Source: Tomocerus qinae
Taxonomy: Eukaryota > Arthropoda > Collembola > Entomobryomorpha > Tomoceridae
Assembly: GCA_020055645.1 (NCBI GenBank)
Contig: CM034546.1
Location: 69,564,001-69,628,000, forward strand
Length of the DNA stretch: 64,000 nucleotides
Reading direction: 5' to 3'
A model generated the notes under the pieces. That model made no database searches. It was not told where the DNA came from and worked only from the letters and a program-made list of their open reading frames with translations. Each line of letters begins with the position of its first letter. The first letter of the stretch is position 1. Both the position numbers and the translations under genes were made by a program. Below are positions 2,729 through 40,570 of the stretch, in pieces.

Positions 2729-5700
2729 TTAGTTATCATGTCCATATTTCCATATACCTTTAGCAGTGCCATATTTCATGTAACGGCCCATAGCTAATTT
2801 TTCATCAGAAATAATTTCCAGGAAATTAGGAACAACGGTTAAAATTTATTCGCTAATTCGGTATATTCTTTTTTTATCTTTTAACATTATTTCCGAAGAT
2901 GAGGCGTTAATAAGGGCACTTTTCAAATTCTCACCAAAAGTATCACTAAAAATAGAAATCCAGGCATCATTGTCCTTATTCCTAGTAACCGTAGCCATAA
3001 ACTCATCATCACTTACCACTTTCACTGGATACCCAAATTCAGAAAATATTTCTACCAAACTTTCAGTATAAATTGGCCGAGGAGGTGTGAAATTATATAT
3101 CCCTGGTTCAATGTTATCGTTAACAAGAAATTTGATTGTTAACTCAGAGGCATTATCCACAGGCATGAAACACCAGCCACCTTCAATCTCAGGCATTACA
3201 CCGTAGCGGACAAACAGCATGACAAAGTTCATAAATGTATTATTATCTACAGAAAATAATCCACTTCGACTGTCGCCTGCCAGCTCTAAGTATCTAACTA
3301 CGGTGCAAGGAATTCCTCGCTCATTTGCCTGTTCATCAACTTTTCGCATACAAATTTTGACAAAATGTAACCTGAATTTAAATTATCGCCATAATTACTC
3401 TCATCAGGGAAATCTTCATAAACGAATCCATCGTCATTTAATCGGTTTATCGTCGAATATGTAGAAGAGTAAAATACTCTTTTAGTTTTGACGTTAGAAG
3501 CAAATCGAAGGACATTTACGGTTCCCAATACATTCACAGATCGAATGTTAGTGATTCCTGATTTAGCCTTCATATACTTTTCGATATGATTTGCTCTTAC
3601 AGCCAAATGAATAACGCAATCAATGCTTACAGAAAGGTTTTCATAAATCTCTTCGGTTAACCCAAATTGTTTTTCCGCTATATTTCCTATCACTATTGAA
3701 ACACCTTCCAGATTTATTTCCTGTTGCAGTTGAAATTTTTTAATGGTGGCAAGGAGTTTCTTTCTGCCATTTTCTATGGAATTGCCTCTAATCAAACAAG
3801 ACACATTTAAATCGGGTAGTTTCAGAAGATCCCTTAGTAGGTAAACTCCAAATCTACCAGTGGCGCCTGTGAACAAAATATTTTTAACCTGTGAAGGTTT
3901 TGTGCATCTGTCGTATGCACTTTTAATATCTTCGGGCAAAACTGAATCCAGTTTTAAAACCTCAACATCATTTTTAAGAACTTCAATATCCTGTGACACA
4001 TTTACTTGTGTAATTTCAAATGTTTGTTCTGCCAAATGTTGACTGAGTGTGTGGATTGTTGGAAAGTCCAGCATTGCTGTAGCATTCAATGTAATTCTTT
4101 TGCCAACTATCTTTTGGAGTTTAATTTTGATTTCCACTCCCATCTATGAATCTAACCCCATATCCGAAAAGTTTTGAAATTCGTCTAACTGGTCTGACTC
4201 TGGTAATCTCAGTGTGTGTCTTATAACTTTTTGTAGATACTTTTTATATAAGAAACTCGTCCAGGCAAATCCAAAGCATTTATTTCAGCCCAAAACGCTT
4301 CAGAAGAAGCGATATCCTGAGTCATTGTACTTTCGTTTTCTTCGTCAATAAGTAATTCTGATAAGTAATTTCCCTTGTTACCAAATGCCTCTATTGTCTC
4401 CTTAATGTTTATCTGTGCAATAGCCAACTGTTTAAGATTAGGTCTTGACATGACAAACTTCAAAGCTGCTATTCCCTGTGTAGGGCTAAAAAAGGATACC
4501 CCAAACCTTCCTTTATTAAATGCATCAATGTTGGCAGATTTTCCTACTGTTGCCCAAGCCCCCCAATTTATCGATTGTGCTGGCAGACCCATTGAATGTC
4601 GATATTGCACTAAAGAGTCTAAAAACATATTGGCTGCGTTATAGTTACTCTGGCCTAAAGCTCCAATAAAAGCTGTAATTGACGAAAATACGACAAAATA
4701 GTCCAACGACAGATTTTTTGACAGATTATGTAAATTCCAACCTCCAGAAACTTTGGCGTTGAATACAGCTTCAAATTTCTCCCAAGTTTGATTCATCAAA
4801 ATTCCATCAGAAAGTACGACTGCAGAATGAATAATTCCTTTCAAAGGGGGCCATTTGTATTTTGGTAAACCAATATCTTCAAATAACTTTGAACATTGCA
4901 CCCAGTCACCAATATCTACTTGAAAAGTTTCAACCCGACATCCTTTGGCTTTCAATTTAGTAACTTCTTTTTGAGTGTCATCGTTTGGTACAGACCTAGC
5001 AACAAGAATTATATTTTTCGCCCCTGAATCTACCATCCACTTTGCAACTTCTAATCCAATTCCACTTAATCCCCCTGTAATCAAATATGTTGCATATTCT
5101 TCAAAATTGAAATCGTTTAAAAGCTGTCGACCATTACATTCTTTTACTTCAGGCATAAAAAGTACAATTTTTCCGATATGTTCGGCTTTAGCAAAATAAC
5201 TTAATGTCTCTCTAATTTGACAAATTGGAAACTTTCTATAAGGCAATGGGAAAATTTTAATCTCTGAACAATATTTTTCCAACAAGATTACATTTTTTTG
5301 CAAATCTTCTAAAGTTGATTCCTCCAAATCAAATATTTTGTATTGCACATCAGGTCTAATTTGCTTGACTTCTTCAGATGTCCAGATATTAACTTTTCCA
5401 ATTTCAATAAAACGAGCACCAATGCCACAGACATTTAAAGTGGCCTCCTTAAATCCTGGACCAGTTAATGAATTAAGGACAACGTCTACACCTTTCCCAT
5501 TAGTAGCCTTAAGTATCTCATCTTCATATGTCAAGTCTCGGGAGTGGAAAACATGTTCAATTCCTATCGATCTCAAATAAGTCCTTTTCCTATGACTTCC
5601 AGCTGTAGCAATTATGCGAGCTCCAATTAGTTTTGCGATTTGGATAGCAATCAAACCTACTCCACCAGAAGCCACGTGAATTAAAAGGGTTTCGTCTTTT

Positions 5701-8700
5701 TTTAAATTGGCTATAGGCACCAAACAGTTATAAGCTGTGTAGAAAACAGAAGGTAGTGTACATGCCTCAGAAAACGACAGAGTACTTGGGATTTTTACGA
5801 CCACACTTTCCAGTACAACGACATGGCTTGCAGCACAACTGTTTATTGTGATTCCAAAAACTCTATCCCCAATTCTGTTCGTGACAACTGCAGAGCCAAC
5901 ATCTGAAACAATTCCTGCAAAGTCGGATCCTATGCATTCATTATATTTACTTGTATACTGATCCGGTTGAAGTACAACAAACAGATCTCGAAAATTAAGA
6001 GCTGTTGACTTCACAAGCACCTCAATCTCATTTGGCTTCAATGAACACTTCAATGAAGGACGAAATTGCAAATCTTCAATTCGTTTTGAAATAGGTCTTA
6101 CAATGTTACAATAGTGAAACGTCCCTGAGGAAGTTTTAAGGGTGTCCTCGGCAAAAGCATTTGACACATACGCATTACAGATTTCTTATGGTTCCGATAC
6201 GAACAAATGCCATCTGTTCCCGAAAATAATTCAAAGAGGAGATCTTCAGCTTTAGCTTTCATATCTTTACAGTCTGGGTCTAAGTCTACTAATTTGACTG
6301 ACAAACTGTCACATTCGATGGCTGCTGTTTTAAACATACCGACTAATGTGGCCTTATGCGGTGAAACTGTCTTTTGGTTGTCAGTATTGTACACCCCGGT
6401 TGTTGCAGCATAAAATCGAGTGTTGAGATTGTTCTGAGAAATAATAAACTTCATAATGTTTAATCCAGGCAAGCAAATACGAGATTGATCTATTAAATCA
6501 TAATCAGAAATGCCTCTTAAGTAACAAAAGCCTTCTATACTATTTTCTTCGAAAATGGTTTTTAAACATCTTGTTACGTCTTCTAACACCATCATGTCTA
6601 AATAGAAAGCATTTAAATCGTCTTCTATTTCCTTGTATACTGATCTGGTTGAAGTACAACAAATAGATCTCGAAAATTAAGAGCTGTTGACTTGACTAGG
6701 ACCTCAATCTCATTTGGCTTCAATGAACACTTCAATAAAGGACAAAACTGCAAATCTTCAATTCGTTTTGAAGTAGGTCTAACTACAGTGAAACGTCCCT
6801 GGGGAAGTTTTAAAGGCGTGCTCGGCAAAGGCATTTGACACATACGCATCACAGATTTCTTGTGATTCCGATAACAACAAATTCCATCATCTCCTGAAAA
6901 TAGTTCATGGAGGAGCTCTTCTGCATTTACTTTCATATCTTTACAGTCAGGGTCCAAATCCACAATTTTAACAAACAAATTCCCAAACTCATTAGCAGCC
7001 GTCTTAAAAATGCCGACTAATGTGGCCTTGTGGGGCGAGATTGTCATTTGATTGTCAGTGTTGTACACCCCGGTTGTTGCAACATAAAAGCGAGTATTGA
7101 ATTTGTTGTTCTGAAAACTTCATAATGTTTAATCCAGGCAAGCAAATGCGAGATTGATCCATTAAATAATAATCAGAAAGGCTTCTTAAGTAACAAAAGC
7201 CTTCTACATTGTTGACGTCAAAAATGCTGTTTAAACATCTTGTTACGTTTTCTAACACCATCGTATCTATATAGAAAGCATTTGTATGGTCTTTTATTTC
7301 CTTATGATCACCAATGTCTTTAATCAAGTAAACATTTCGTCCACAAGACTCCAACATTTCCTTTATATGCCGGTAAATATCATCCGTATCACAGAATAAA
7401 ATCCAGGCCTTCTCTTTTGATGGAGTGTCCATCAATTTGTCTTTAATAACGGCACGAGCCGAAAGTACTCTAGCAATTGTATCCACGTCAGAAATGTTTT
7501 CTGACATGTCAAAGCCTGTACTTAGAAGAAGACGATCCCAGACATCTTCTTTAACATTTGGGTGATTTGGTCTTATTTTATAATCTGTGAATTTCCAGTA
7601 ATCTTCGAAAATACCGAAAACTATATCCTTATGTCGCTGTATACCTAACGCTTCCTGCAGAATGAAATATCCATTTTCCCGAATCAGAATTCTAACGTTT
7701 TTCAATGAGTCATGTAAATTTGATGTGGCATGTATTACGTAGGATGCCACGACTACGTCATAATTATATGGTGCGAAGCCTTGATTTAAGGGATCTTTTT
7801 CTATATTAAGAATTCCATAATCGATGTTACTCTCATCAGCAAATTTAACTTTTGCTTCGTCAATGAAAGAGGAAGCTACATCTGTGAATGTGTATTTGAA
7901 TGGAATTCCACCTTCCTTAAGCCCTTTTATAATTTCTGCAGTTGTGGCTGCATATTCTCCCCCTATTTCTAATATTCTTAAAATGGGGCACTTTTCTCTA
8001 ACTTTTAAGCCCAAATCTTTAAAAATCATTTGCAAATACACACTTGTACATTTGTTTAAATAACTCGTTTCCGCGCTAAATGCAAATTCCCTTATTACAT
8101 TTAAATGTGTGTCGTTGTTTTCAAGAAAAACTGAATGGGGAGTAATTTCACCTAAACACACCTTTGGAAGCTGCTCAATACAGTATTTAACAATGTGACT
8201 AACATCATGCCTTTTGTTAGTGATATTCTCTATTTTCGTAACCAATTCATCGTACTTTCGAATCTCTGTCTCTACTTCTGATATCGTTGGTAAGATTCGA
8301 ACAACTTTCCATTCACTGCTAGAACTTTGTTTTTCCAAATATCCATCCTCACAAAGAATATCAAAAAATCGGGATAAAATATTTTCTACAGACAATACAA
8401 ATCCACAGCTTTCGATAAAAGATCTAGAGTAAATGTATTCATCAATTTTCGGTTTAAATCCAACTGTAATCAGAAATTTCAAAATATGCGCTGTGCAAAA
8501 CTGAGGACTTAGAATTGAATCAAACTTTTTATTCAACTCGCTGTCGGTCCTTACAGCTTTGGATAGCCCTTGAAAAAATTCGTCAGAAACTACAAAAAAA
8601 TCATTTTCTGACAATTCTACCCGATTTTTTAGCGGGGCATCTCGTGAACGCCAAACTTCTTGATACATTGCAGGAATTATGTTCTTACCAGCATTTGCTA

Positions 8701-11700
8701 TATTTAAAAACAAGTTTACTGAAGTTCTTGCCATACGCACGCCCTCTAAAAAGACAAGTGGTTCATTGTTTATACTGTACAGAGTTACATCACCAATGTA
8801 TCTTCCCCGACAAACTGCATGTGCATAAAATAATTTTTGCTCTGGATAAAATTTATTAAAAGTAACCTTTTCTATAGCTATTGGCATAAATAAATCTTTA
8901 TCCTCCTCCTCATTAAAAGTTGAGGGGAGCAACTGTAACAATGCATCTACTGCAAGTAGATGGCGTAGGTATTTTTCCACCAGGTTATGTTCTTTTAATT
9001 CCAAAGAAACTTCTGAAAGACATTCGTTACCGGTTCTCCATATAGTAGTAATACTTTGAAAAGTTTCTCCAAAATTAAAACCATATTCTAATCCTCTTCT
9101 GTATATTTCTGATGCTTCTCCCTTCCTTTCGCAACGTAATTTAATTTTCTCTGCATCAAAATCATTAACCAATTTCGAAGCAGAACCTGTATCTGAAATT
9201 ACCATAGCTACAGCATACGATTTCCAACCCTTTTCATCATTGTAGCCATTGATGTTCTGAAACACAAATATCTGAATTTTCATTTTCCCTTCTTCGTCGG
9301 CAGGATACACCACAGTTTGCATTTTATATCGTTTTCCCATCTCAAGCACAAATGGAGCTTCAATAGAGAAATCTGTTATTGCAAAATTCTCTTTTAAAAT
9401 ATCCCTTGCACAAGATAAGATTATTTCTAGATGTCCTGCTGCCGGAAATACTATTATATTCGCCACTTGATGATCTTTAAGATATTCAAACTCTTTCAAA
9501 TCCAAATCATTTCCGTAGATACGCACGTTTTCGTGAGCCAATGAAATTTTTCTGCCCAGCAATGGGTGCAACTTTTGAGTAAGATGGTCTGTGTTATGAC
9601 TCTCTATCCAATATTTTCGACGTTGAAATGGATAAGTTGGCAATTCTAACTTTTGTCTTTCATTCAGAAGATCTAAACCTTTCCAGTTGATTGATGGACC
9701 ATTAGTGTACAATTTACCCATACTTTGTAGAAAGGTCATCGATCCTTGTTCTTTCCTTCGGATAGAAGGTAACCAAATGCTTTCTTCTATATATGACGAA
9801 TTAGCCATTCCTAATGCCAACAAAATTGGATGTGGGCCAATTTCAACGAATACATTGCACCCGTTCTCAAATAGGGTTGCAACACCTTTCTCAAATTGTA
9901 CAGCATCCCTCATGTGCTGAACCCAATAAGAGGGATTCAAATCATCAGATGCCCAAAGGTCACCAGTGTTCCCAGATACATAACTGCATTTAGGATGTTT
10001 CATGACAAACTTTTTGCAAAAGTTTTCATATAGTGATAAAATATCATCCATTGTTCGTGAATGATATCCTCGATTTGCTTTTAGTCTATGAATTTTCTTT
10101 CCTTTTTGTAAAGAAAATCCTTCAAATGCCAGTATGGATTCCACACTTCCCGCCACGACAGTTTCACGTGGGGAATTTATTACAGCAATATCTACTGCCA
10201 AATCAGTATTTACTTTTGAAAATTCGTTAATCAATTCTAATACGACAACTTTTGAAGCATGGATAGCTAACATACCACCTTCTGGTAACGATTCCCCTAA
10301 TTTACTCCATTCAACTAGTAAATCTATTGCGTCATTGAAACTTAAAATTTCCGCGGCCACAGCTGCTGCGTATTCACCAATACTGTGGCCCAGTACAAAT
10401 TCCGGCTTTACATCAAAACTTTCCCACAACTGCAACAAAGAGTATTCAATTGCAAAAATTGACAGCTGACTATACAGTGATTGTTCCAGTAAAGTTTTGT
10501 TCGATTCGTCCCATAGGGCGTCTTTCAATGAAATCCCGACACTTTGTTGTAAATAGTTATCACATTTGTCAAAGGCATTTCTGAAAACTATATTGGAATA
10601 ATGCAAATCCTTTCCCATGCCAAAATATTGGGATCCCTGGCCAGTAAAAAGAAAAGCTATTTTTGGTTTCGCAAATTTGAGGGTCGGGGGTTCAAATATA
10701 TGGTTTTCCAAATTCAAAGTCAGCTCTTTGATACTCTTGGCCACAAAGGCACTACGAAATTTAAAATCGGCTCTACCTTTATTTGCCGTGAATACAACAT
10801 CTGCTAAATTAACTTTTGAATTGCATTGGAAATATTCAATATATCGTTTTGACAAATCCAGGAGAGCTTTTTCAGACTTTGCGGAAATAGTAAAAATGTG
10901 ATGTGACTGATCAACATCCGGTTTATCTGACTGGAAACTAATTTGGCTATTCATTGGAGGTTCTTCTAAAATGACATGTACACATGGTCTTACACCAGCA
11001 TTTTTCAACGCTTCCTTCACCGCAGTTTCCTGACAGTGTTCACTTGGTGTTCCAAAACTGCACGAAGTTCCTTCGTTTGTTACACCAGAACCGCGAATAA
11101 TTCCCAAAATTCGGTCCCCATTTTTAATCGCATCTGGCAGTCGTTTCAAGACGACACCGGCAATGCCCTCGGCTCTTGAAAACCCATCAGCCTTTTCATC
11201 GAAGGTTTTACACTGGCCATCTTTAGCTAAAACAGGAATGACTGAAGAGGGAATATTTATAGATAGAATGTTGGCCCCTAAAACCAATCACAAATTCGTT
11301 TCTTGCTTTCTTAAACTTTCACTTGCTAAATGAATGCCAATCATTGAGGACGAACAACCAGACTCTATAGCTATATTTGGTCCGTTTAATCCCAAGAAGT
11401 AAGACACACGAGCAGATGTCGCTGAAAATGCACTACCGAAAACAACGTTAAGAAAATCTTAAGGAGAAGCATTTTCTGTCACAAGTCGTTCGTAATAGTG
11501 TTGCCAAACTCCAGTAAAAACTCCGGTATTCCCACCTAATAAATATAAAATAGAATCATTTTGTAATGTCACACTAAAATAAGATTTTGGTGCTTGTCTC
11601 TTGTTCTCTTTTTATCTCATTATGTGTCAATATGGGACCGGTTGTAAATTACTATTGCCGTGTCGTGTTTATAATGATCAATTGTTGCTTGCCTTTCAGT

Positions 11701-14700
11701 GAATGAGGATTATTTGCAGCATTCTCCAAGGTTTCCCATGCTACCTGTAATAGCAATCGTTGTTGAGGATCCATGAATGTTGCCTCCCTTGGACTGATTC
11801 CAAAAAAATTGGTATCAAACTCGTCAATTGGACATTTGAGAAATCCACCCCAGGATTCTGTAAATCGGGGATCATTCCGTTGGAAATCTTCGAGACGTTC
11901 AGATGGAATTGTGGATATTCCATCTCCGCCCCTTTTTAACAAATCCCAAAATTCATCAGTACTGTTGGCCCCAGGAAATCTGCAACTATATCCAACAATT
12001 GCTATAGCATTTTTGTAGTAACTCCTTTCACTGGTTTCAGGAAACAAACCCATATCTTGTCTTGTTGTTGTAAATTCAGCATTCAAGTTGTTGACAACCA
12101 TTTCATAATACGAAATCAAGGTATCTAATTTATCCTGAAATAGTAAATAAAATGATGTAATTTTAGGAAAGTAACTGAATATTATGGCATTTCTAGAAAT
12201 TATTAACACCTTAGTGAAAGAATCCATCTGTGTCGTCCTTTTTAGTAGAGTTATGTCTCCTACGTCAATTATTTTTGCAGAGTAAAGCCCCCTATTTTAT
12301 CAAAATAAATATAATGAACGCATAGCACATCCTACGTTATTAAATATATAGTAACCACTATTTCAAACATAATTATCGTATAATTTCATTTTATATTACA
12401 AAGAAATAAGTGTAATATAGGTATGCGGATGGTCAGCAATGTCAAATGACGGGAAAAGAGATTTAGAATAGATATTCAATAATTTATTGCCAATTTTTTT
12501 GAGCAATTCGTCACGCTAAACTACCTTTATATTATTGTATTTTCTGGATAAATATTTGGAAAGGGTGCGAAAAATTATCTAATATACCCATATATAAATA
12601 CGGATAGTGATTTATACTTTTTACAAGGAAATTTTTCATTGTATTATTTTTCTTTTTTATACGAAGTCATCAAACCAGGTTCACCATCATTAAGGGCAAT
12701 AATGATAACGTGAATGATTTAAATGATGTTGTTCTCACATTTCTGTAGATGTAGAGATTCATGCTTGTAATTCACACCATTAAGATAATCGGTGTGGACA
12801 TTTTCCACAGAACCTTGAATAGTATTGAATACGTCACAGAGTTCATTGCATTAAAGATTGATGCAGATACAATGAATTATTAGTAAAGTCGCCGCTACCC
12901 ATTTCGTAACCTTTCTATATAAATGGTAGTTAGGGGACCAATTATGTCGAGCGATTCAACTGTTTTTTCAAGCACTTTGTACTAAACGTGAAGGGAAAGC
13001 AAATTATTTTTAGCGAGGCAAACTAACTCGAGTTAGGCCATAACTATTTTCCTACATTTAGTGCTCAACTTACTCAACATTAGGAAGTGAATTGCTGATG
13101 TCATAATTGAAGTCCGCAGGAAGTTGACATAGAAACTTTTTATTTTTTTGCTCATCAAACATTGCATCAAAAACCTCCGATACTGAAAAGAGGAAATGAC
13201 GTACATTTTTCAGGCATAGATATAAATTGATGATTATAATCAAGCACGAATTTAGTAGGGGGCGGGAGGAGGAAGGGTAAATGAGAAGTGACTAATAACC
13301 AAAATGGGCAAAAGTCAAATTGGGGCTAAAAGATACGCAAAAGGATGTAAAATTTAGGTACTTGGCCCTTTCGCCCACTACCTACTTTGCCCCACTTCCC
13401 CAGGTAGGTGGGCAAATATAGTTTTGGTCGGCTAAAACTCTAGCTGTGCTTCACTATTTTTGGTGGGGCCCCTCTTGACCAAATTTCTGGATACTGGACT
13501 GATAAGAATAATCATAAAATTGATAATAATATACTCACAACTGCCAGGTGCATTGGTGTCCACATTTTCCAATAAACCACGACTCGAAACAAGTTTGGTT
13601 CGAGTGAGGAAAACTGAAGAGTCAAATTTATTTTCCTTATTTACATTCGTAACCGCCGCGAATGCAAAATTTTTACCGAGTTCAAACAACTCGTCACAAT
13701 TTTTTACAACCTGTACATGAATATAAAACCAAATATTAAAAGGAAAGATTGCAAATTATATCTAACGCATCTATTTTCAAAATAAGCACAACTTTCTTAG
13801 TATTTAATTAATATTAATAATATTAATATCTTTATTTAATTATATTCTTAATTTAAATTTGGACGTTTTAGTCAAAGGCAAAATGATGTTATTATTATAT
13901 TTAACATTATACAATCCTCAAAAGTAGTCTTATTATGTTGTTAGTTTGAATTACATCTTACCATTTTACTAGGGCTGAGAATAATGCAGGTGGTGTACAT
14001 TTGTAAGTGACAGCCCTGTATTTTTAATTGGTCGCTACAATTGAAGCCTGTAATCTTGATGCTTTGTGGAAGAACAACATCAAAATACCGGGCCAATCGT
14101 TTTCTTCAAAGACAAATAATCAAATAAATGTTGCATTGATCTGTAGAACTGTAATTGCTTGTTTCATTTGTGCCAGAAATACTAAAAATTATTTAAAAAT
14201 ATTCTGTGAATTACTTTACCCTTCAGTGGCATGGAAAACTTCATAAGATGTCAAGACAACGATATCAGCGACAGTGACAACACGGGAAAGAGATTTTGCC
14301 AAAACAATAGCATTTTCAACTGATGCTAGGTCAGCAACAACAGTTACCCAGGCATTCCTTCCTTCTGCAGGTTATTTATTATTTCATTGCACAATAGAAA
14401 CATGACAAATACATGTTTACAATATTAGGTATAATATTATTGTATTCTGTTCTAATTAACGCATCCACTAAGGTACAATAAATAATATGATTTTAAAAAA
14501 TCAACCCTTAATCAATTGCACAATTGTACTAAAATACTATAAAAATTTATTTTATTGGTTTTTAAAACTTGATGTTGGTTATGGAACATTTTAAATAGCA
14601 TATTATAGGTTTTAAGTGTTCTACAATGATAGTTGTACAATCTACTAATTTTTTAAGTACACATTTAATACCTGTTTTTTTAAATATATTAGACAGAAAA

Positions 14701-14906
14701 AGCCTTTAGAAACAAGACTAAAGCCTGGCTAATCAATAACTAATAACATTCAGTTATTATTCAGATATTATTCAGTTGCATTCGGTTATATATTATTAAA
14801 ACTAAAGTCAATTACTTTTAAATGGTTTTTATTCAATAAGGAATATTTGAATTTTGTAAAAAATGCAAAAACAAAATCAAATAAAATTCGACTTACGTGG
14901 TCCCAT
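2729..14906 (-). pseudogene. Pseudogene copy of the GT8-like/polyketide synthase fusion gene
   Basis: This is a head-to-tail paralogue of the intact gene at 30538-18491, with the same exon plan: 14906-14897, 14364-14220, 14103-13962, 13710-13539, 13182-13074, 12291-12210, 12134-11693, then the large exon from 11535. The five internal small exons and exon 7 are open. The large exon is broken many times. TAA at 11461-11459 and TGA at 11290-11288 both lie in KS. About 357 bp is missing in frame near 10980, removing the HGTGT and NTGH catalytic motifs of KS. There is a frameshift near 7115 and a duplicated block of about 0.67 kb (7303-6635 and 6634 to about 5950) with a stop at its junction. Further frameshifts lie near 6130, 4240 and 3340. 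TAG at 4146-4144 directly follows the ACP serine, and TAA at about 2848 precedes a final homologous tail ending at 2729. The GT8-like domain has LSPS where glycogenins have their DxD metal site. Transcription is not excluded, but a working synthase is. Confidence 0.9.
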
Positions 14907-18490: not shown

Positions 18491-21400
18491 CTACCAATTC
18501 CCAGTTTCCAAAATCCCTGCATTTTGAGCATATTTCACGTAACGGATCCAGACCAGTTTTTCATCAGGAATACATTCCAGGAAATTAGGAATGGCCGTCA
18601 AAATTTTATTGCTTATTTGGTAAATAAGTTTCTTATCTTTTAATATAATTCCGGCAGATGTGGAATTAATAAGGGCACTTTTCAAGTCCCATCCAAACGA
18701 TTCATTGAAAATAGAAATCCAGGCGTTGTCCTTATCGTTTGTAATAGTAGCTAAAAATTCATCATCACTAACCACTTTCAATGTATATCCCATTTCCGAT
18801 ACTAGTTTTACAAAATCATTGGTATATATTGGGTTAGGCGGGGTGAAGTTATAGACTCCTGGTTCAATGTTATCATTAACAAGTAATTTGACAGTCAACT
18901 CAGAAGCAATATTCACAGGCATAAAACACCAGCCACCTTCAATCTCAGGCATAACACCATAACGGAAAAACAGCATGACAAAATTCATAAATGTGTTATT
19001 ATCTACAGAAAATATTCCCGTCCGACTGTCGCCTGTTAACTCTAAATATCTGACCACTGTACAAGGAATTCCTCGCTCATTTGCCTGTTTCATCAACTTT
19101 TCGCATACAAATTTTGTTAAAACATAACCCGAATTTAAATTATCGCCATTATTGCTCTCATCGGGAAAGTCTTCATAAATGAATCCATCGTCATTCAATC
19201 TGTTTATCGTCGAGAAGGAAGAAGAGTAAAATACTCTTTTAGTTTTGAGATAGCAAGCAAATCGAAGGATGTTTATTGTTCCAAATACATTCACAGACCG
19301 AATGTCAGTGATTCCTGATTTAGCTTCCACATACTTTTCTATATGATTTGCTCTTACAGCTGCATGGACAATGCAATCAATTTTTAATGACAAACTTTCA
19401 TAAATATTTTTTGTTAACCCAAACTGATTTTTAGCAATATTTCCCAAAATTATAGAAACAACTTCCAGATTTATTTCTTGCTGCAACTGAAATTTTTTAA
19501 CAGAAGCAACAAGTTTCTTTCTGGCATTTTCAGAAGACTTTCCTCTGATCAAACAGAAAACACATAAATGGGGAATTTTCAATAGATCCCTTAATAAGTA
19601 CACTCCAAATCGACCTGTGGAGCCTGTAAGCAGAATATTTTTAACCTCGGAAGGTTTCACATATCCTTTGTATGTACATTTAATATCTTCAGGTAAAATA
19701 GAATCCAATTTTAATAATTCGTAATCATTTTCCTGTACTTTGGTCATTTGTGGAGAATGAATTTCTTCTACCGTTGATATTTGTTCCGCTAAGTGTTGAC
19801 TTAGTGTGTGGATTGTTGGAAAGTCCAGCATTGCTGTGGCATTTAGTGTAATCCGTTTGCCAACAATCTTTTGGAGTTTTATTTTGATCTCTACTCCCAT
19901 CAAAGAATCTAAGCCCATATCCGAAAAGTTTTGAAATTCGTCTAACTGGTCTGATTCTGGTAATCTCAGTGTTTTTCTGATAACTTTTTGTAAATACTTT
20001 TTTATGTAAGAAACTCGCCCAGGAAAATCTAGAACATTTATTTCAGCCCAAAAACCTTCAGAAGAAGCGATGTCCTGATTGATTGAACTTTCGTCTTCCT
20101 CGTCTACAAGCAACTCAGACAAGTAGTTTCCCTTGTTACCAAATGTTTCTATTGTCTCCTTAATGTTTATCTGTGCGATAGCCAATTGTTTAAGATTAGG
20201 TCGAGACATGACAAACTTCAATGCTGCTATTCCCTGTGCAGGACTAAAAAAGGAAATGCCAAACTTTCCTTCGTTTAGGGCTATAATGTTGGCAGATTTG
20301 CCCACCGTTGCCCAGGCACCCCAATTGATTGATTGTGCTGGGAGACCAATTGAATGGCGATATTGTATCAAAGAATCTAAAAACATATTAGCTGCGTTAT
20401 AATTACTCTGGCCTAAAGCTCCTATCAAAGCTGTAATTGAGGAAAATACAATAAAATAGTCCAAGGGCAGATCTTTTGACAAATTATGTAAATTCCAACC
20501 CCCAGAAACTTTGGCATTGAATACAGTTTCAAATTTTTCCCAAGTTTGGTTCATCAAAATCCCATCAGAAAGTACGACTGCAGAATGAATAATTCCTTTT
20601 AAAGGAGGCCATTTGTATTTTGGTGACCCAATATCTTCGAATAACTTTGAACATTGCACCCAGTCACCAATATCTACTTGAAAAGTTTCAACCCGACATC
20701 CCTTGCCTTTTAATTTAGCAATTTCTTTTTGAGTGTCATCGTTTGGAGCAGATCTAGCCACCAGAATTATATTTTTCGCCCCTGAATCCACCATCCACTT
20801 TGCAACTTCTAATCCAATTCCACTTAAACCCCCTGTTATCAAATATGTTGCACTTTCTTCAAAATTGAAATCATTTAAAATCTGCCGACCGTTATATTCC
20901 CTTATTTCTGGCATTCCGAGTACAATTTTCCCAATAACTTCGGCTTTAGCAAAATAACTCAATGCCTCTCTAATTTGACAAACTGGAAACTTTGAGTGAG
21001 GTAATGGATATATTGTAACCTCAGAAAGATACTTTTTCAAAAAACTGCCACCTGCGACATAATGTTCTTTTTTTGCATAATCTAAATCAAATATTGTGTA
21101 CTGGATATCCGGTCTAATTTTATTGATTTCTTCTGGAGTCCAAATGTTAATTTTTCCTATTTCAACAAAACGAGCACCAAGCCCACAAACACTTAAAGTT
21201 GCTTCCTTAAAACCTGGACTGGTTAATGAATTGAGAACAACGTCTACACCTTTTCCGTTCGTGGCCTTACGTATCTCATTCTCGTATGTTAAATCTCGAG
21301 AATGAAAAACGTGTTTAATTCCTATAGATCTCAAATAAGCTCTTTTCCGATGACTTCCTGCTGTAGCAATTATGCTAGCTCCAAGTAGTTTCGCGATTTG

Positions 21401-24400
21401 TATAGCAATCAAACCTACTCCACCAGAAGCCACATGAATTAAAACTGTTTCTCCACTCTTTAAATTTGCTTCAGTTATTAAGCAAAGGTAGGCTGTGATA
21501 AAAACCGAAGGCAACGTACATGCTTCTGTAAAGGAAAAATGATTCGGAATTTTAAGGGTTGCATATTCTTTTACTATAACATGACTTGCCACAGAACTGC
21601 GTTTAGCAATACCAAAAACTCTATCACCTATTCGAAATTTACTTGAAGCAGAGCCAATATCTGAAACAATTCCTGCGAAATCTGATCCTATGCATTCATT
21701 ATATTTACTTGTAAACTGGTCTGGTTGAAGTATAATGAAGAGATCTCTAAAGTTTAAAGCAGTTGACTTCACAGTTACCTCCATTTCCCCTGGCTTTAAA
21801 GCCGTCTTGGCCAATGGGCGAAACTGCAAATCTTCAATTTGCTTTGAGATAGGTCTCACTACAGTGAAACGTCCCTGAGGAAGTATTAAGGGTGCGCTGG
21901 GCTTTGGCATTTGACACAAACGCATTACAGACTTCTTGTGATTCCGGTATGAACAAATGCCATCACTTCCTGAAAATAATTCATGGAGAAGCTCTTCCGC
22001 GTTAGCCTTCATATCTTTGCAGTCTGGGTCTAAGTCAATTAGTTTCACAGACAAATTTCCACACTCATTAGCTGCTGTTTTAAAAAGGCCGACTAATGTG
22101 GCCTTTTGCGGTGAAACTGTCTTTTGGTTGCCAGTATTGTACACTCCGGTTGTAGCCACATAAAATCGAGTATTGATTTCGATCTGAGAAATTACATATT
22201 TTATAATATTTAAAGCGGGAAGACAAATACGGGAATGATCTTCCCAAGAATAGTCAGAAATGCTTCTCAAGTAGCAAAAACTTTCCACATTATCATCGGT
22301 GAAAATTCTGTTTAAACATTCCCTTATATCTTCTAACACCATCGTATCTAAATAGAAAACATTTGGATGGTCTTCTCTTTCCTTGTGATCATTAACATCT
22401 TTTATCAAGTAAACCTTTCGTCCACAAGACTCCAACATTTCTTTTAAATGTCGATACATATTGTCCGTATCACAGAACAATATCCAGGTTTTCTCTTTAG
22501 ATGGAATGTACAGCGATTCTGCCTTAACAACCGTACGAACCGAAAGTACTCTAGCAACTGTATCCGCATCAGAGACATTTTCTGATATTTCAAAGCCAGT
22601 GTTTACAAGAAGCTGATCCCAAATATCTTTCGTAACGTGTGGATGATTTGGTCTTATTTCATAATCTGTAAATTTCCAGTAACCTTCTAAAATACCGAAA
22701 ATGATATCTAAATGTCGTTGCATACCTAACGCTTCCTGTAGAATGAAATATCCATTTTCCCGTAACAGAATTCTAACGTTTTTCAAAGAGCAATGTAAAT
22801 TTGATGTGGCGTGTATTACATAAGATGCCACGACTATATCATAATGATATGGTGCAAAGCCTTGATTTAAGGGATCTTTTTCTATATCAAGAATTCCATA
22901 ATCAATGTTACTCTCATTAGTAAATTTAACTTTTGCTTCGTCAATGAAAGAGGAAGCTATATCTGTGAATGTGTATCTAAATGGAATTCCACTTTCCTTA
23001 AGACATTTGATAATTTCTGCTGTTGTGGCTGCAAATCCTCCCCCTATTTCCAATATTCTTAAAAAGGGGCACTTTTCTCCAACTTTTAAACCCAAATCCT
23101 TAAAAATCATTTGCAAATACACACTTGTGCATTTGTTTAAGTAACTCGTTTCCGCGCTAAATGCAAATTCCTTTATTACATTTAAATGTGTGACTTGGTT
23201 TTCATGCAAAACGGAATGAGGAGTAATTTCACCAATGCACACATTTGGAAGCTGCTCAATACAGTATTTAACAATGTGGCTAACATTGTGCTTTCTATTA
23301 GTACTATCTTCTATTTTCGAAACCAATTCATCGTACTTTTGAATCTCTGTCTCTACTTCTGATATCGTTGGTAAGATTCGAACAACTTTCCACTCGCTGC
23401 TAGAACTTTCCCTTTTCAAATATCCATCCTCGCAAAGAATATCAAAAAACCGGGATATAATATTTTCTACAGACAATACAAATCCACAGCTTTCGATAAA
23501 AGATCTAGAGTAAACTTTGTCACCCAATTTTGGACAAAATCCAACTGTTAGTAAAAATTTCAAAATATTAGCTGTACAATATTGAGGATTTAGGATTTCG
23601 TTAAACGTTTTAAGCAGATTTTTCTGGTTTTTTACTGTTTCCCGTAATTCGTCACAATAAACCTCAGATTTCATCAAAATATCCAAATTTACCCTCGCCT
23701 GATTAGGGGCGTCTCTCGAACGCCAAACTTCTTGATACATTTGTAGCATTTTGTTTTTTAATGCATCTGCAATATTTAAAAATGAATTGACGGAAGTTTT
23801 TGCCATGCGTATCCCTTCCATAACTACAAGCAATTCATTATCCTCATTGTAAAGCATCACTTCGCCAGAAAATGTTCCATGGGGAACTGCATAAGCATAA
23901 AACAATTTAGAATTTCGACAAAAGTTAATAAAAGTAATTTTTTCTATAGCAATTGGCATATACAAGTCTTTATGTTCCTCACTGAAAGTTAGAGGGAGCA
24001 ATTGTAGCATTGAATCTATTACAAGTAAGTTGCGCAAGTAATCTTCCATCATACTAGTATCCGTTTTTAGCCCTGGAGTAATTTCCGAAAGAAATTTGTT
24101 ACCGGTTTTCCATATTGTACTTACACTTTCAAAGGATTCACCAAAATGGAAACCAACTTCTGTAAACGTCTTGTAAATGTCTGAAGCTTCTATCTTCACT
24201 TCACAATTTAATTTCAATTTCTCTACATCATGAAAATCAAAATTCGGAACAGAACCTGAATCAGAAGTTATCGTGGCCCCAGCATAGGATTTCCAACCCT
24301 TTTCATTGTTGTAACTATTGATATTCTGAAACACAAATATCTTTACTTTCATTTTTCCTTCTCCATCCGCAGGATTCACCACAGTTTGAATTTTATATCG

Positions 24401-27400
24401 TCTCCCCATCTCAAGCACAAATGGAGCTTCTATAGAGAAATCCGTTATTGCAAAATTCTCCTTTAATATATCCTTGGCACAAGCGGAGATTATTTCTAGA
24501 TGCCCTGCTGCTGGAAATACTGTTACATTTGCTACTTGATGATCTTTAAGATATTGAAAATCTTTCAAATCCAAACAATTTTCATAGACGCGAACATTTT
24601 CATCAGCCAAAGAAATATTTCTGCCCAACAATGGATGCAACTTTTGAGTAAGTTCGTCAGAAAAGTGACATTCCGTCCAATATTTGCGCCGCTGGAAAGG
24701 ATAAGTTGGCAATTCCAGCTTTTGTCTTTCAGTAAGGAGATCTAAAACTTTCCAGTTAACTGAAAAACCATTAGTGTACAATTTACCCAGACTTTGTAAA
24801 ATGGTAACCAAGCCCGAATCTTTTCTTTGAATGGAAGGTAACCAAACGCTCTCTTCGGTGTATGAAGAATTAGCCATTCCTAATGCCAACAAAATCGAAC
24901 GTGGCCCAATTTCAACAAATGTATTGCACCCAATTTCAATAAGAGTTGCCATACCTTTCTCAAATTGTACAGCTTCCCTCATGTGTTGGGCCCAATAAGA
25001 AGAATCCAATTCATTTGAAGCTTGACACAATCCTGTCTTTCCTGATACATAAATACAATTTTGATTTTTATGCGAAATTGTTTGGGCGAAATGTTTAAAT
25101 TTTTGTAGGATATCATCCATAGCTCTAGTATGAAATCCTCGATTTGTATTAAGTCTGTGTATTTTCATGCTTTTGTCCAGAGTGAAGCTCTGAAATGCAA
25201 GTATCGAATCAGAATCTCCTGCCACGACAGTTTCATATGGAGAATTTATTACGGCAATATCTATTGGCAAATCAGGATTCAACAAAGAATATTCCTGAAG
25301 CAATTCTACTACGACATCTTTTGAAGCCTTAATAGCTAACATACCACCTTCTGGTAATGATTCTACTAATTTACTCCTTTCAACAAGTAAGTCTATTGCA
25401 TCATTGAAATCTATAATTCCCGCGGCCACAGCTGCTGCGTATTCGCCAATACTGTGACCCAGTACAAATTCCGGCTTTACACCAAAACTTTCCCACAACT
25501 GCAACAAAGAGTATTCAATTGCAAAAATTGAAAGCTGACTATACAGTGATTGTTCCAGTAAAGTTTTGTTCAATTCATCCCATAGGGCGTCTTTCAATGA
25601 AATCCCGACACTTTGTTGTAAATAGTTATCACATTTGTCAAAGGCATTTCTGAAAACTATATTGGAACAATACAAATCCTTTCCCATGCCAAAATATTGG
25701 GATCCCTGGCCAGTGAAAAGAAAAGCTATTTTTGGTTTCGCAAATTTGAGTGTCGGGGGTTCATATACATGGTTTTCCAAATTCAAAGCCAACTCTTTGA
25801 TGCTCTTGGCCACAAATGCACTACGAAATTTAAAATCGGCTCTACCATTATTTGCCGTGAATACAACATCTGCTAAATTAACTTTTGAATTGCATTGGAA
25901 ATATTCAATATATCGTTTTGATAAATCCAGGAGAGCATTTTCAGACTTTGCGGAAATAGTAAAAATGTGATGTGACTGATCAACATCCGGTTTATCTGAC
26001 TGGAAACTAATTTGGCTATTCATTGGAGGTTCTTCTAAAATGACATGTACATTTCCACCAGCTATACCAAATGAGCTAATTCCAGCAATCCGCTTCCTAT
26101 GCGGATTTCTATTCCAATTTTCGCATTCAGTTGGAATTTTTGCGGGGATCACATTTAAGTCTATATTTGGATTAATCGTTTGAAAATTAATATGTGGAGG
26201 AATTGTTTCATGCTTCATAGACAACAGTACCTTGAAGAGACCTGCCATTCCAGCAGCTGATTCTGTGTGACCAGTATTGGTCTTAACAGAGCCAATTAAT
26301 AAAGGTTTATCTCGCTGTCCTTCAGAATAAGCTGCCGACAGCGCAGCGAATTCAATTGGATCTCCCACGGGAGTTCCCGTTCCATGTGCCTCAACATAAT
26401 CAACTTCGGATGGTCTTACACCGGCATTTTTCAACGCTTCCTTCACCGCAGTTTCCTGACAGTGTCTACTCGGTGTTCCAAAACTGCACGAAGTTCCTTC
26501 ATTTGTGACACCAGAACCACGAATAATCCCCAAAATTCTGTCGCCATTTTTAATCGCATCTGGCAATCGTTTCAAGACGACACCAGCAATACCCTCGGCT
26601 CTTGCAAACCCATCAGCCTTTTCATCAAATGTTTTGCAAAGGCCATCCTTAGCAAATACAGAAATGCCTGAAGAGGGAAGATTTACTGACAGAATATTGC
26701 CACCCAAAACCAAGCACAAATTCGTTTCTTGCTTTCTCAAACTTTCGCTTGCTAAATGGATACCAATCATCGATGAAGAACAACCAGACTCTATAGCTAT
26801 ATTTGGTCCGTTTAATCCCAAGAAGTAAGACACACGAGCAGAAGTCGCTGAAAATGCATTTCCGAGAACAACATTGAGGAAATCTTGATTAGAAGCATTT
26901 TCTGTCACAAGTCGTTCGTAATAGTGTTGCCAAAGTCCAGTAAAAACGCCAGTATTCCCACCTTTTAATAAAAATATATATAATATATAATAATATATAT
27001 ATTTATCATGGTATAATAATAAGTATATTATAATAATAAAGTATAATTATAATTAATCAAAAATTAGCGCATTGAGTTTCAAATCAAATTTCCAAAAAGT
27101 TGAGCTGTAAATAGAACTAAAATGTCATAGGAAATTACTTTACTGATAAATAAATAACAATGTCAAATCATTCTTTCATACAAGTGGGGGGTATAATATT
27201 TTAGTACGTAGACTACCAAAATTTATGGCTGATAATGACTTATTTCGATTTTAATTAACCGTTCTTATATCAAAAATAAAAGTCACCAAGGAGTTTGGGC
27301 ATTATTACAATTAATACGACTAAAATAATGCATTATGACATCAGTATTAGAGAACCATAAAAAATAACTACTAATTAAGATTCTAAAATTGATTTACATT

Positions 27401-30400
27401 ATTAAGAACATAAATATAATATTATATTATATTAAAGGGGAGTACCCCAAATCGTCAACACCTTCATTATTCATGGGTAAGTTAGGTTATATTTGGTTAT
27501 ATAGAATTATAATGTTGGCAATTTGGGGGTGAATCATATTGAAGTGGCTTTACTACTTACTACTTGCAACTCCTAGTCCTAAAATTATGCTATGCAAAAA
27601 TTTGCGTTGTAGTTAATGTTTATGCCACCTAAATATTTAATTATTTTCGGAGTCTGAGATCATAGAAGGACATTTAGGTTAGTGAAGCCCTTTTATATTA
27701 CACTTAATTAAACACTGTACTGGCAAAATTACAGAACATTATGAAGGAAAAACATTTTGTACAAAAAAATTATAACTTGCTGTTGATAATAATAATATAA
27801 TGAAAAATTGTGTTGTTGCTTGCCTTTCAATGAATGTGGATTAATTGCAGCATTCTCCAAGGTTTCCCATGCTACCTCTAATAGCAATCGTTGTTGAGGA
27901 TCCATGAATGTTGCTTCTCTTGGACTTATCCCAAAAAAATTGGCATCAAACTCGTCAATTGGACATTTGAGAAATCCGCCCCAGGATTCTGTGAAGCGGG
28001 GATCATTCCGCTGGAAATCTTCGAGACGCTCAGATGGAATTTTGGATATACCATGTCTACCTCCTTTTAATAAATCCCAAAATTCGTCAGTACTGTTAGC
28101 TCCAGGAAATCTGCAACTATAGCCAACAATCGCTATAGCATTCTCGTAATTACTCCTTCCACTGGTTTCAGGAAACAAAGCCACGTCATAAACTGCTGGT
28201 GAAAATCCAGCATTTATGTTGTTCACAATCGTTTCATAATATGAAATCCAGGTATCTAATTTATTCTGTAAAAAGAATAAAAAATGTGATAAATTCAAAC
28301 TTATAAACTTTTTGGAAAGCAACAAAACAGTGTACTTTGGTATAAAATATTGTAAAATATTTAACCTTAGCTATGAAATCCGTCTGCATCACGTTTTTCA
28401 TTTGATTTATGTCTTCAAAGTTAATAATTTTAGCAGAAAAAAGTGCCCTGTTTAACATAGAAGTAGAAAAATATTGAAAATATTCAAAAATTATTTTCGT
28501 TGTTCATTAATAAGTAGTATACCTCTAGTGACCGTTTTCGTAAATATCAACTTACTCAATATTAGGAAGGGAATTGCTGATACTATAATAGTAGTCCTTT
28601 GGAAACTGGCATATCATTTGTTTGTTGTCTTTCTGATTGAAAATGTCGTCACAGACATCAGATACTGAAAATTGAAAAAGGAATTTTGAATACAATCTAC
28701 AATCTTCATTATTTTTGTTATGGAATATCAATGTCCACAACTTATTTTGCACAAGTTGTTAGAAATTATTAAATAAATACAACGGGCAACGTACAATACT
28801 TCAGGGTTAAAAATGAAAATATACTTACAACTGCGTAATCCAATGGTGTCCATGGTTTTCAAAACTCCGCGAAATATTTTAGGTCGAACGACGAAAATGG
28901 AGGGATCCATCTTATTTTCCTTATTTTGAAAGATAGCCGCGGAGAAATCTTGATTATATTCAAAAAGCTCGTCACAATTTTTCACAAACTGCATAATATA
29001 AATAAGAAATATACTAAAAGTAATACAATTTTTTTCACCACCACCCTCAAAACAAACAAATAAGGGAGATGATGAACTAGACACTTCTGTTGCAACATTG
29101 CATACCTGCGTCTACTTGTTTACTAATCTGCCAATTCAATCTATATCCAATGAATTTGTTACTTCTACACATTGAAAATACAAAACCCGCAGTACAATTA
29201 TTGTCTATTTTCTGTCGCCTTAAATAGATATTCAAAGTTAGTCTTAATGATCATACCATTTTATCAGGACCGAGAATAATGCAAGTGGAGTACATTTCCA
29301 AGTGACAAGCCTGTATTTTTAACTGGTCGATGCAATTGGTGTCCGTAGTATTGGTGATTTGTGGAAGAACAACATCAAAATATTGGGCCAATTGATTTCT
29401 TCACAACAATAAACAAATAAACATTTCCTTAATCAGTAAATTGCTACTAGTATTTAAAATGTAATAAAAATAATTTTAATTTACCCTTCAGCGGCATGAA
29501 AAATTTCATGGGATGTTAATACAACGATGTCCGCGACAGTGACAACACGAGATAGAGATTTTGCTAAAACAATGGCGCTTTTTACTGATGGTTTGTCAGC
29601 AACAACAGTCACCCAGGCATTTCTCCGTTCTGCAAATTTACAATAAAAAGTACTTACAACATTTTGTGCTGCCACTATTTGTAAACAAAATTATACCCGC
29701 TAGAATAATTTTTATCCTAATCTAACCATGTATAATTCTATATTATAATTATTATGATTATTGACAATTGATGTTTACAAACTCAGAGCCCAAAGATAAG
29801 TAAAAAAATTAATGAGGCATTCCAATTATTTATTTATTAATTCTCCCAGCATTGTGGAACTAAATTTTGAGAAGTAGACATCCAAAAGATTTGGCAGAAT
29901 CAGAATTTGTTTCATGTAATGTTGATCATGTATTACGAAATAAGTGTCTGCCCCTTTTCGCTTACCCCACCATACATAGGTAGCTATCAGGAAACAAAAG
30001 TGTACAACATTTTACAAGCAAAAAATACTACAATTTTTTTAAAGCAGCCCTTTTCCCAATTTTGCTATTTATATCTTTTGTTTCATGTAAATTAAAGTAA
30101 ATAACACTTTCAAAAAAAGGTATTTGTACAAATAATGCAGTTTAAAAATATTATTTTTATTTAAAAAACCAAAGGGTATTATTTTGACTAAATTTGCTTT
30201 AAATATTACTCTTAATTTCATGTATATGTACTCATCAGTTGTAACTAACGCATAGTCTATGTTTTACGAATACTGTGATTCCTTATCGATAAATTGAAAA
30301 AATACAATTTCAGATTGTTCAGACTAATAAAAATATTATTTAATCTAGGTTACTACACTGAGTCAATATTTAATATCTTTTTTATTTTTCCTTTCTAAAC

Positions 30401-30538
30401 GATGTACATTTACATGGATACAGTACAATAAATTCAGTTTAGATATGCAAGTATAATCAATAAATACATAATTGGTGGTGATGTTAATGGATTGTGAATT
30501 AAATTAAATAATTTATAAATCAACTTACGATGCCCCAT
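18491..30538 (-). CDS. GT8-like/polyketide synthase/thioester reductase fusion protein
   Basis: This is a predicted 3186-residue iterative type I synthase of the highly reducing kind. Exons are 30538-30529, 29629-29485, 29398-29257, 28988-28829, 28664-28556, 28447-28366, 28265-27824 and 26961-18491. All phases join, and the last intron is GC-AG. Residues 1-250 follow glycogenin (GT8) from the N-terminus to its closing helix, but the DxD metal site reads LGPD (94-97). KS spans about 257-672 (Cys424 in ESGCSSS, His556 in HGTGT, His595 in NTGH). AT spans 775-1071 (Ser867 in GHSIG; GFH at 972-974 suggests malonyl-CoA). DH spans 1133-1421 (His1171; HxxxN instead of HxxxG). C-methyltransferase spans 1586-1846 (LEIGGG). 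Pseudo-KR spans 1851-2046. ER spans 2061-2381 (SGGVG). KR spans 2398-2651 (TGGLSGIG; Lys2514, Tyr2551, Asn2555). ACP spans 2681-2757 (Ser2716 in GLDSL). A thioester reductase spans 2803-3181 (TGSTGRFG; Tyr2976-x3-Lys2980). It would build a methylated, reduced chain and release it as an aldehyde or alcohol. The product is unknown. Confidence 0.87.
26962..27823 (-). other. GC-AG intron inside the KS domain
   Basis: Exon 7 ends TTGAAAG followed by GCAAGC, and the next exon begins after an AAAAG acceptor at 26962. Splicing gives the expected KS sequence (SLKG joined to GNTGVFTG). No GT donor in the neighbourhood gives this. The same GCAAGC donor occurs in the pseudogene copy at 11692. The intron is very AT-rich (for example 26970-27010) and otherwise featureless. 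Confidence 0.8.
29630..30528 (-). other. First intron of the PKS fusion gene
   Basis: A consensus GTAAGT donor follows a tiny first coding exon (ATG plus seven bases), and the acceptor is TTTGCAG. The same tiny exon and donor occur in the paralogue (14906-14897), which supports this unusual start. Nothing else was recognised inside the intron. Confidence 0.7.
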
Positions 30539-38494: not shown

Positions 38495-38745
38495 ATGCAA
38501 TATGCCAGCGGTGCAAGTATAGCTGGTCAAAACTGCTATTTCATCAGGAATACATTCCAGGAAACTAGGAACGGCCGTCGAAATTTTATTATTTACTCGG
38601 TAAATAAGTTTTTTATCTTTTAATATAATTTCTGCAAATGTGGAGTTAATAAAGGCGGATTTCATGTCCCATTGTCCTACCCACCCGCATGAAGCATTGG
38701 AACAAATAGAAATCCAGGCGTTATTTTCATCATTGCTAGTAAGGC
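38495..38745 (-). pseudogene. 3' remnant of a third PKS copy
   Basis: The minus-strand translation matches the C-terminal 70-80 residues of the intact PKS reductase domain. NNAWISI is followed by a short insertion, then WDMKSAFINSTFAEIILKD, KKLIYRVNNKIS, then SFLECIPDE. Compare DLKSALINSTSAGIILKD and FLECIPDE in the intact copy. Homology fades before the end, and nothing upstream (above 38745) continues the protein. The same strand and order as the other two copies imply an ancestral tandem array. It is not a functional gene. Confidence 0.75.
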
Positions 38746-38750
38746 ATCCA

Positions 38751-40570
38751 AAAACCAGTAAATTCGTATTACCGCTAACCGGGAAATTCGGTATAAAATT
38801 ACCGGGAATTATCCGGAAGTATTTTACACATTAAATATACATCCATATACAACCATATACATCAACTTGTGATTGCTTATAAAAGCCTAAAATTAATGGC
38901 TGACTTTAGCAGTCATTCGAGCAAGGATTTTTCTCAAACGATTTCTCTTTTTAAATATAAGAACGACTTCTCTTTTTTGAATAAACAATTACTCTTGTTT
39001 TTAACGATTTCTCATTTTTTTTCGAAAAGACGCGTGCATGTGTAGTAAGGGTAGAAGCCAAATTATGGAAAACTATATTGGCATGTATTTTTTTAAGGGT
39101 AATGAACGTTTCTAAATTTAGAGATAAGGTTATTACTACTTCTCAAACATATTAAAACCCCAAAAACTGTTGCAGCATGTTTTAACTAACACAATTGGTA
39201 AGCCATTTTGTTCAAAATCTAACATAATATGCGTCTGCCGTAGGGGTGTTAAACATGAATGTACACTTATGCAATTTTGCACATCCTATTTTCCATGTTG
39301 TTGCCCAAATTTTTTTTTTAATTTTCCAATGCATGCAAATCGACACTGGATTCCACTCGTGACTTAAATCTTGTTGCCCTTTTGCTTCAAAAAATTTTCT
39401 ATACTTCCATTTGTTCGTTTCAAAAACGATTCAAATGATACAAAACCATACCATATTTTTGCTGTTTTGAGACATGTAACGTTATTGACCTTGTATCAAG
39501 AAATTGAACTATTCAAGAATTTAATTTCACTGGCTTTCTAAATGTCGGTGAAATTATTTGTTAATTTTCTGACGAGCGAGGAGACAAATTTTGTATAAAC
39601 TTTCTTAGTCATCATTAGTTTTTATTGGGAAAATAGGAATTCGTATTGCACACACCTTAATTTTGTATGAGCTTTTAAAAATTAGTTTGCCTAAAACTTT
39701 GTATCGAATTTATGAATATGTATGGCAAGACAGAATAGGCATGATAAAGTTTTTGCAATGCAGTTACATGTTATTAATTCAAAGTGTCAGTATCAATAAA
39801 ATTAATTGAGTAATGGTAATCAAGCAATATTAAGGAACACTATTATAAATTTTACATTCGAAACAATCTAACACTGCACGTGGGTGACGTCCTGATTAAA
39901 TTCTAATAACTCAGTTACAACCTTTTTTTGCTTATCCGTCAAACCTATCATCATGATCGTGATTAAATTCATTCACAAAGTATTTTTTGCTATCTTCGGG
40001 TATAGTTATTATAGTTATCTCCGCGCGGGTATAGTTAAGTTTTATATTTAAATGTTGGTTTAAACTTCCAGGGTAATGATGTTTCAGCCTCTACATCAAT
40101 TTCTGTCCATGTCTGTGGGACCCTTGCCATCCTTTTTTCATTTTATTTGTCAATATAGCGTCACCGTCAGTGTCACAGTCACTATCTGTTTTGTATTCCA
40201 AACTAACAAATTTACTTGACCTGGCCATGGTCCTTACTCAAGTGCAACTTGTCACGAAATACATCTAACACAAATACAGCGCAGACAAGAATCACAGATA
40301 ACGTGCTAACTACAAGATAACGTAAGAACACAGAGCAATGACTTCCCTTCACTTTGCATAACTAACTATTCATTCCTCCTGGCTATTATACTTTCTATTT
40401 GGGTCTTATTACATAGTATATGTCAAGAGAAGTAAGATCAATCACGCAAGTGTACATTATTAAATAAAATGATAGATTTCCTTCTTGAATACTTCTGAAT
40501 TCGTAGTAACGTTGAAAGTTAGTATTGCTCCATTTTTCTAAGGATACATTAAAATGTGCAGATAGCGAGA
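38751..40570. other. Intergenic DNA, nothing recognised
   Basis: AT-rich sequence without supported exons. The small open frames at 39170-39367 and 40395-40598 lack splice context and similarity. Confidence 0.4.

Follow-up and report, generated by a model that had tools for sequence, protein, structure and literature searches.

A glycogenin-like head lacking catalytic residues on a reducing type I polyketide synthase gene of the springtail Tomocerus qinae

Mycocerosic acid synthase (MAS) uses methylmalonyl-CoA and makes multimethyl-branched chains, and the order ketosynthase (KS), acyltransferase (AT), dehydratase (DH), methyltransferase (MT), enoyl reductase (ER), ketoreductase (KR) and acyl carrier domain (ACP) is the layout of fungal highly reducing polyketide synthases (PKSs). 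Arthropod AFPKs carry a thioesterase (TE), and a few sequences a reductive domain (main text of PMC10764717), so arthropod synthases that end in a reductase (R) are not new in themselves. In the springtail Folsomia candida, 30 type I PKS were counted among 36 antiSMASH clusters, and most genes in these clusters are marked as horizontally acquired (main text of PMC5490193); one Folsomia PKS is also named as horizontally acquired in the main text of PMC10764717. Here we analyze a window of 64,000 nucleotides from the springtail Tomocerus qinae (contig CM034546.1, positions 69,564,001 to 69,628,000), in which one minus-strand gene (18491..30538) encodes a continuous fusion of a glycogenin-like domain, a PKS and a reductase. 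With a probability of roughly 0.5, we read its product as an iterative type I PKS of bacterial ancestry, preceded by a glycogenin domain that was captured and is catalytically dead, with a 1,3-methyl-branched, reduced chain as the predicted product.

A sequence-only reading of this DNA had proposed eight phase-compatible exons forming one open protein, and the rebuilt coding sequence bears this out. Exons 1-4 (30538-30529, 29629-29485, 29398-29257 and 28988-28829) and exons 5-8 (28664-28556, 28447-28366, 28265-27824 and 26961-18491), all on the minus strand, join into 9561 nt encoding 3186 aa, and the sole stop codon of this frame is the terminal one; springtail homologues are mostly 3062-3250 aa long. 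Introns 1-6 are of the GT-AG type, and intron 7 is GC-AG. Exon 1 (30529..30538), with 10 coding nt including the start codon, is the weakest piece of the gene model, and is supported by the same mini-exon at 14906-14897 in a tandem paralogue and by homologues that start at approximately the same residue. The junction between the glycogenin-like domain and KS falls inside exon 7 (27824..28265), which codes residues 217-363 without interruption and has the same length and the same GC donor in the paralogue. Exon 8 (18491..26961), an intronless stretch of 8471 nt delimited by its open reading frame, the exon assembly and Pfam, encodes the remaining PKS and the reductase. Seven of eight splice positions had been described as shared with the paralogue; the sharing stands and the count does not, since a gene of eight exons contains seven introns, each of which lies at the equivalent place and phase in the paralogue, GC donor included. 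Exon lengths are equal between the copies for six of exons 1-7, with exon 4 differing (160 vs 172 nt). The introns are unevenly distributed, with six ahead of residue 217, one within KS and none over the following 8471 nt, a pattern that fits a mixed origin of the gene.

Along exon 8, Pfam recovers KS, AT, DH, Methyltransf_12, ADH_N/ADH_zinc_N, KR, PP-binding and NAD_binding_4 in this order, and with the KS start located in exon 7 by alignment, KS-AT-DH-MT-ER-KR-ACP-R lie on one chain. The domain order proposed earlier is recovered, and the earlier description of a PKS that reduces fully, methylates and releases its chain through a reductase is supported. Active-site motifs are legible in every domain, with 19 motif sites in the window protein. 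The KS (26183..28142, split by one intron between the end of exon 7 and the start of exon 8) shows ESGCSSS, EAHGTGT and NTGHTES, and the AT (24764..25723) shows GHSIGEY and RGFHT. These are followed by the DH (23792..24637), the C-methyltransferase core (22745..23053; LEIGGGF, VIHATSNL), the ER (20918..21796), the KR (20309..20851), the ACP (19790..19996; GLDSLM) and the terminal thioester reductase (18905..19630), each assigned by Pfam and motifs and the last also by a structure-sequence search.

A search with exon 8 was used to collect relatives, and the best 120 of 696 matches above threshold include 15 proteins named as springtail, comprising eight from Orchesella dallaii, two from Orchesella cincta (P0004, P0008) and five from F. 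candida, which bear database names such as Pks15/1-like, LovF-like or erythronolide synthase. The first eight matches show 34-37% identity and cover 97-100% of the query, and most of the springtail PKSs resemble the window protein in domain order and length. The AT specificity motif of the window protein is atypical, reading RGFHT where 13 of the 15 relatives have HAFHS. Around the KS active-site Cys, the window protein and the 15 springtail rows read ESGCSS or ESGCST (ESACST in P0041), and the bacterial rows printed have mostly DTACSS. Two O. dallaii proteins, P0025 and P0077, have no reductase aligning to that of the window, and the AT of P0077 is also disturbed.

The head comprises residues 1-250 and spans exons 1 to 7 (28164..30538, minus strand, introns included). 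Pfam gives no match for the GT8 part of the window protein at E<=1; phmmer matches it to glycogenin-1 at E=1.1e-4, and a profile built from 14 family heads matches glycogenin across profile positions 6-248 at E=4.8e-36. A complete glycogenin catalytic-domain fold is predicted for an Orchesella homologue, which is a distant relative of the window protein. By profile, alignment and modelled fold, the head therefore belongs to the GT8/glycogenin fold, sharing with glycogenin-1 and glycogenin-2 the catalytic-domain fold and sequence pattern, but it lacks their catalytic residues and is fused to a PKS.

To assess these residues, 14 heads were aligned with human glycogenin-1, leaving aside P0006, P0013 and P0016, of which two have truncated N-termini and one is nearly identical to P0011. 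In glycogenin the DxD pair binds the metal and Tyr195 is the acceptor. Asp102 is kept as Asp in five of the 14 heads and Asp104 in four, and the DxD pair as a whole is absent from all 14. Asn133 is found in none, with Asp at that place in 11. The GGDQG Asp is likewise absent from all heads (0/14), in a column made less sure by five gaps, the window among them, as are His212 and Lys218 (the latter with two gaps). The acceptor Tyr195 occurs only in the most diverged row, in a column that gaps again make less sure, and the window has Ser there. In contrast to these losses, 13 heads retain the Lys that corresponds to human K86, and Asn110 and Asp112 are likewise kept in 13. The head thus retains a glycogenin fold without the catalytic signature and is probably not an active glycosyltransferase. 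The earlier proposal of a glycogenin-like GT8 head on an animal PKS is borne out for the fusion and the fold, whereas a working GT8 is not supported by sequence, because the catalytic signature is lost.

Head sequences have diverged strongly, with 11-29% identity between the window and its relatives over aligned stretches (15 pairs), compared with 46-53% for KS, 21-30% for DH and 26-34% for R (13 pairs). A comparison of the intact gene with its tandem paralogue gives a dN/dS of 0.42 for the head (250 codons), 0.08 for the KS part of exon 7 (106 codons) and 0.27 for exon 8 (2624 codons, from five of seven aligned exon-8 pieces). These values, which come from a pair with one copy now dead and carry no significance test, suggest purifying selection on the head that is weaker than on KS.

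The head profile detects a head in the window protein and in 14 of the 15 springtail-named PKSs, but in none of the other 105 listed proteins. Because most springtail rows helped to build this profile, a search with human glycogenin-1 alone serves as an independent test, and it finds the window protein and 10 of the 15 springtail PKSs, again with 0/105 among the others. The sole springtail-named PKS without a detected head, P0006, is short at its N-terminus. A quick tree was built from 118 KS rows, leaving out three of the 120 matches because their KS match is <=300 residues; in it the window, the 15 springtail PKSs and four metagenome rows form a set of 20 with SH-aLRT support of 100, and the window KS is placed outside the remaining 19 rows with support of 97, a placement that suggests a lineage apart from those of Orchesella and Folsomia. 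The named non-springtail rows of this tree are bacterial, and no fungal row is included. No glycogenin head was found in the four metagenome proteins of the clade (P0017, P0034, P0055 and P0059); P0055 and P0059 start directly at KS and contain a reductase, and P0034 begins inside KS. P0017, P0055 and P0059 may genuinely lack a head, or their gene calls may have been truncated at introns.

A single fusion event is tentatively suggested by the KS clade and the common layout. However, a head tree that includes human glycogenin, with weak support and long branches meeting, places glycogenin inside the springtail rows (86/91) and, taken at face value, speaks against this. Outside springtails, residues 1-275 of P0001 as query found only P0001, P0003 and P0004; since the known carriers P0002, P0005 and P0007 were missed, the silence of this search means little. 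When 3979 candidate proteins of 0.55 to 1.75 times the query length were searched with the 14-head profile, none matched at E<=0.001, a weak negative, as even glycogenins were missed.

Among solved structures, the best-scoring relatives of exon 8 are bacterial cis-AT PKSs, with MAS at 666 bits, CurL at 580 and erythromycin PKS constructs at 540, followed by fungal LovB (443), animal fatty acid synthase (FAS; 402) and EcPKS1 (367). MAS itself is not known to have an MT or R domain or a glycogenin head. MxaA, which stems from a bacterial pathway, is the closest solved relative of the terminal reductase (E=3.8e-33). The layout had earlier been likened to that of fungal-type highly reducing PKSs, and it is indeed of that kind, but among solved structures the sequence scores higher with bacterial type I PKSs than with LovB. 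A fungal origin is disfavored by the position of LovB below the bacterial PKSs, a comparison confined to solved structures alongside a KS tree free of fungal rows. Animal FAS and the animal FAS-like PKSs (AFPKs; EcPKS1 and EcPKS2) are likewise animal type I megasynthases; membership among them was rejected, since in the solved-structure comparison the bacterial enzymes outscore them and the chain ends in R, not TE. A bacterial PKS gene may have been captured behind animal exons, in agreement with the reports of horizontal acquisition in PMC5490193 and PMC10764717 (main texts).

Established PKS chemistry allows a mechanism to be proposed. Malonyl units would be condensed, the alpha carbon methylated from S-adenosylmethionine, and each unit fully reduced by KR, DH and ER; several rounds would give 2,4,6-type (1,3-spaced) methyl branches on a saturated chain, to be released by NADPH-dependent reduction as an aldehyde or alcohol. 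The head would no longer transfer sugar and may act as a tethered structural domain, joined to KS by a flexible linker and serving as a dimer brace or in docking or anchoring. A pigment is unlikely because the chain would be fully reduced, and a lipid or signal alcohol would fit better. The predicted chain resembles two springtail lipids described in the main text of PMC11321324, namely the 2,4,6-trimethylhexadecyl 2,4,6-trimethylhexadecanoate of Anurida maritima, with all centers S, and the 1-methoxy-2,4,6,8,10,12-hexamethylnonacosane of Xenylla maritima, there likened to the phthioceranic acid of Mycobacterium; this likeness is suggestive and no proof.

Several observations weigh against this product assignment. 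According to the main text of PMC11321324, 1,3-polymethyl lipids occur in two of 23 species, the ester type is found in no other springtail investigated, and O. cincta, a carrier of such PKSs, has 9,29-dimethyl and 3,11,23-trimethyl alkenes, whose methyls are widely spaced and not 1,3-branched; a polymethyl-branched hexaene is reported there from Sinella curviseta. That paper assigns these lipids to the fatty acid pathway, and the word "polyketide" is absent from its main text. With 30 type I PKS clusters in F. candida, a good number of the copies may have other products. The AT of the window protein, moreover, bears RGFHT and not HAFHS.

The competitor on the product side is a defensive compound, pheromone or hormone precursor in place of a cuticular lipid, to which we give somewhat less than an even chance. 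The abundance of Folsomia clusters (PMC5490193) and the different cuticular lipids of O. cincta (PMC11321324) favor it, as do the two of 15 springtail PKSs, P0025 and P0077, in which no reductase aligned to that of the window and the springtail defence chemicals named in the literature (PMC10825826). On the other hand, a full reducing set with MT and R predicts a saturated branched chain like the two reported polymethyl lipids. As for the head, it might be a neutral passenger, left when a bacterial PKS inserted into or next to a copy of glycogenin and came under its promoter and behind its first exons, so that the head persists merely as the start of the transcript. The missing catalytic residues, an identity (11-29%) below that of KS and largely that of DH and R, and a dN/dS of 0.42 against 0.08 where exon 7 codes KS are all compatible with this. 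Yet the ratio stays below 1 even with one of the two copies now decayed to a pseudogene, modelling predicts the complete fold in a distant relative, and 14 of 15 springtail-named PKSs keep the head; we regard passive retention as unlikely.

Improbable to a much greater degree is a head that still binds or transfers sugar, with the chain, the PKS or the head itself as the target of glycosylation: the predicted glycogenin fold and the Lys at the K86 place in 13 of 14 heads would suit it, but the DxD pair, the GGDQG Asp, H212 and K218 are each missing from all 14, and the acceptor Tyr survives only in the most diverged row. We attach the least weight of all, a very slight one, to an artefact in which two adjacent genes were joined on paper. 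The gene model is read from DNA; however, exon 7 runs straight across the junction, and the same junction recurs in the paralogue and in separately annotated Orchesella and Folsomia proteins. Turning from these alternatives to the preferred reading of a bacterial-type PKS behind a dead glycogenin domain, its extension to the whole family, with glycogenin-headed PKSs forming a separate springtail megasynthase class (bacterial PKS behind animal glycogenin exons, a dead head as brace or docking part, some members making 1,3-polymethyl cuticular lipids), is a tentative and rather doubtful proposition.

The synthase belongs to a springtail PKS family that is already known but seems to have been little studied. 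Its glycogenin-derived head appears not to have been described for this family, although such proteins are present in databases under other names. No described PKS with a GT8 head had been known to the earlier reading, which agrees with the literature searched; uniqueness does not hold, because deposited Orchesella and Folsomia PKSs carry the glycogenin-like head, so the fusion is not confined to the window gene. A glycogenin-headed PKS appears undescribed in the springtail PKS literature searched, including PMC10764717, PMC5490193, PMC10531068 and PMC10825826. Judged by title and the start of the abstract, in a collection with few subscription papers and no preprints, no springtail paper was found that links polyketide synthase and glycogenin. 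The paper on the Folsomia genome (PMC5490193) uses neither "glycogenin" nor "fusion" in its main text, and the one on the O. dallaii genome neither "glycogenin" nor "polyketide". If the reading is true, a horizontally acquired bacterial megasynthase would have been domesticated in an animal through fusion to a native gene, a dead glycosyltransferase would have been reused as an assembly-line part, and candidate genes for springtail polymethyl-branched lipids would be at hand.

The tandem paralogue (2738..14906, minus strand, lower end approximate) is a pseudogene, with two in-frame stops in KS, frame changes, a deletion of the stretch equivalent to residues about 548-667, and a duplicated match to residues about 1958-2065. 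A third-copy relic (38495..38752, minus strand) matches residues 3099-3182 with 58% identity over 89 aligned positions. The intact PKS gene is therefore flanked by two decayed copies (2738-14906 and 38495-38752), forming a small array with one survivor. Among 11 further frames of the window scanned with Pfam, three are apparent pieces of one GMC oxidoreductase, one has a match below the cut-off and seven have none, the third PKS relic being one of these seven; no PKS tailoring cluster was recognised among these 11 frames, many shorter frames lying outside the scan. The three frames with GMC oxidoreductase domains (35367-37614, plus strand) are located between the PKS gene and the third relic, on the opposite strand. 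Further along, at 53268-58285, a 15-bp tandem repeat of about 331 copies is open in several frames, and one frame of 1727 codons encodes a Ser-Thr-Glu-Pro mucin-like stretch.
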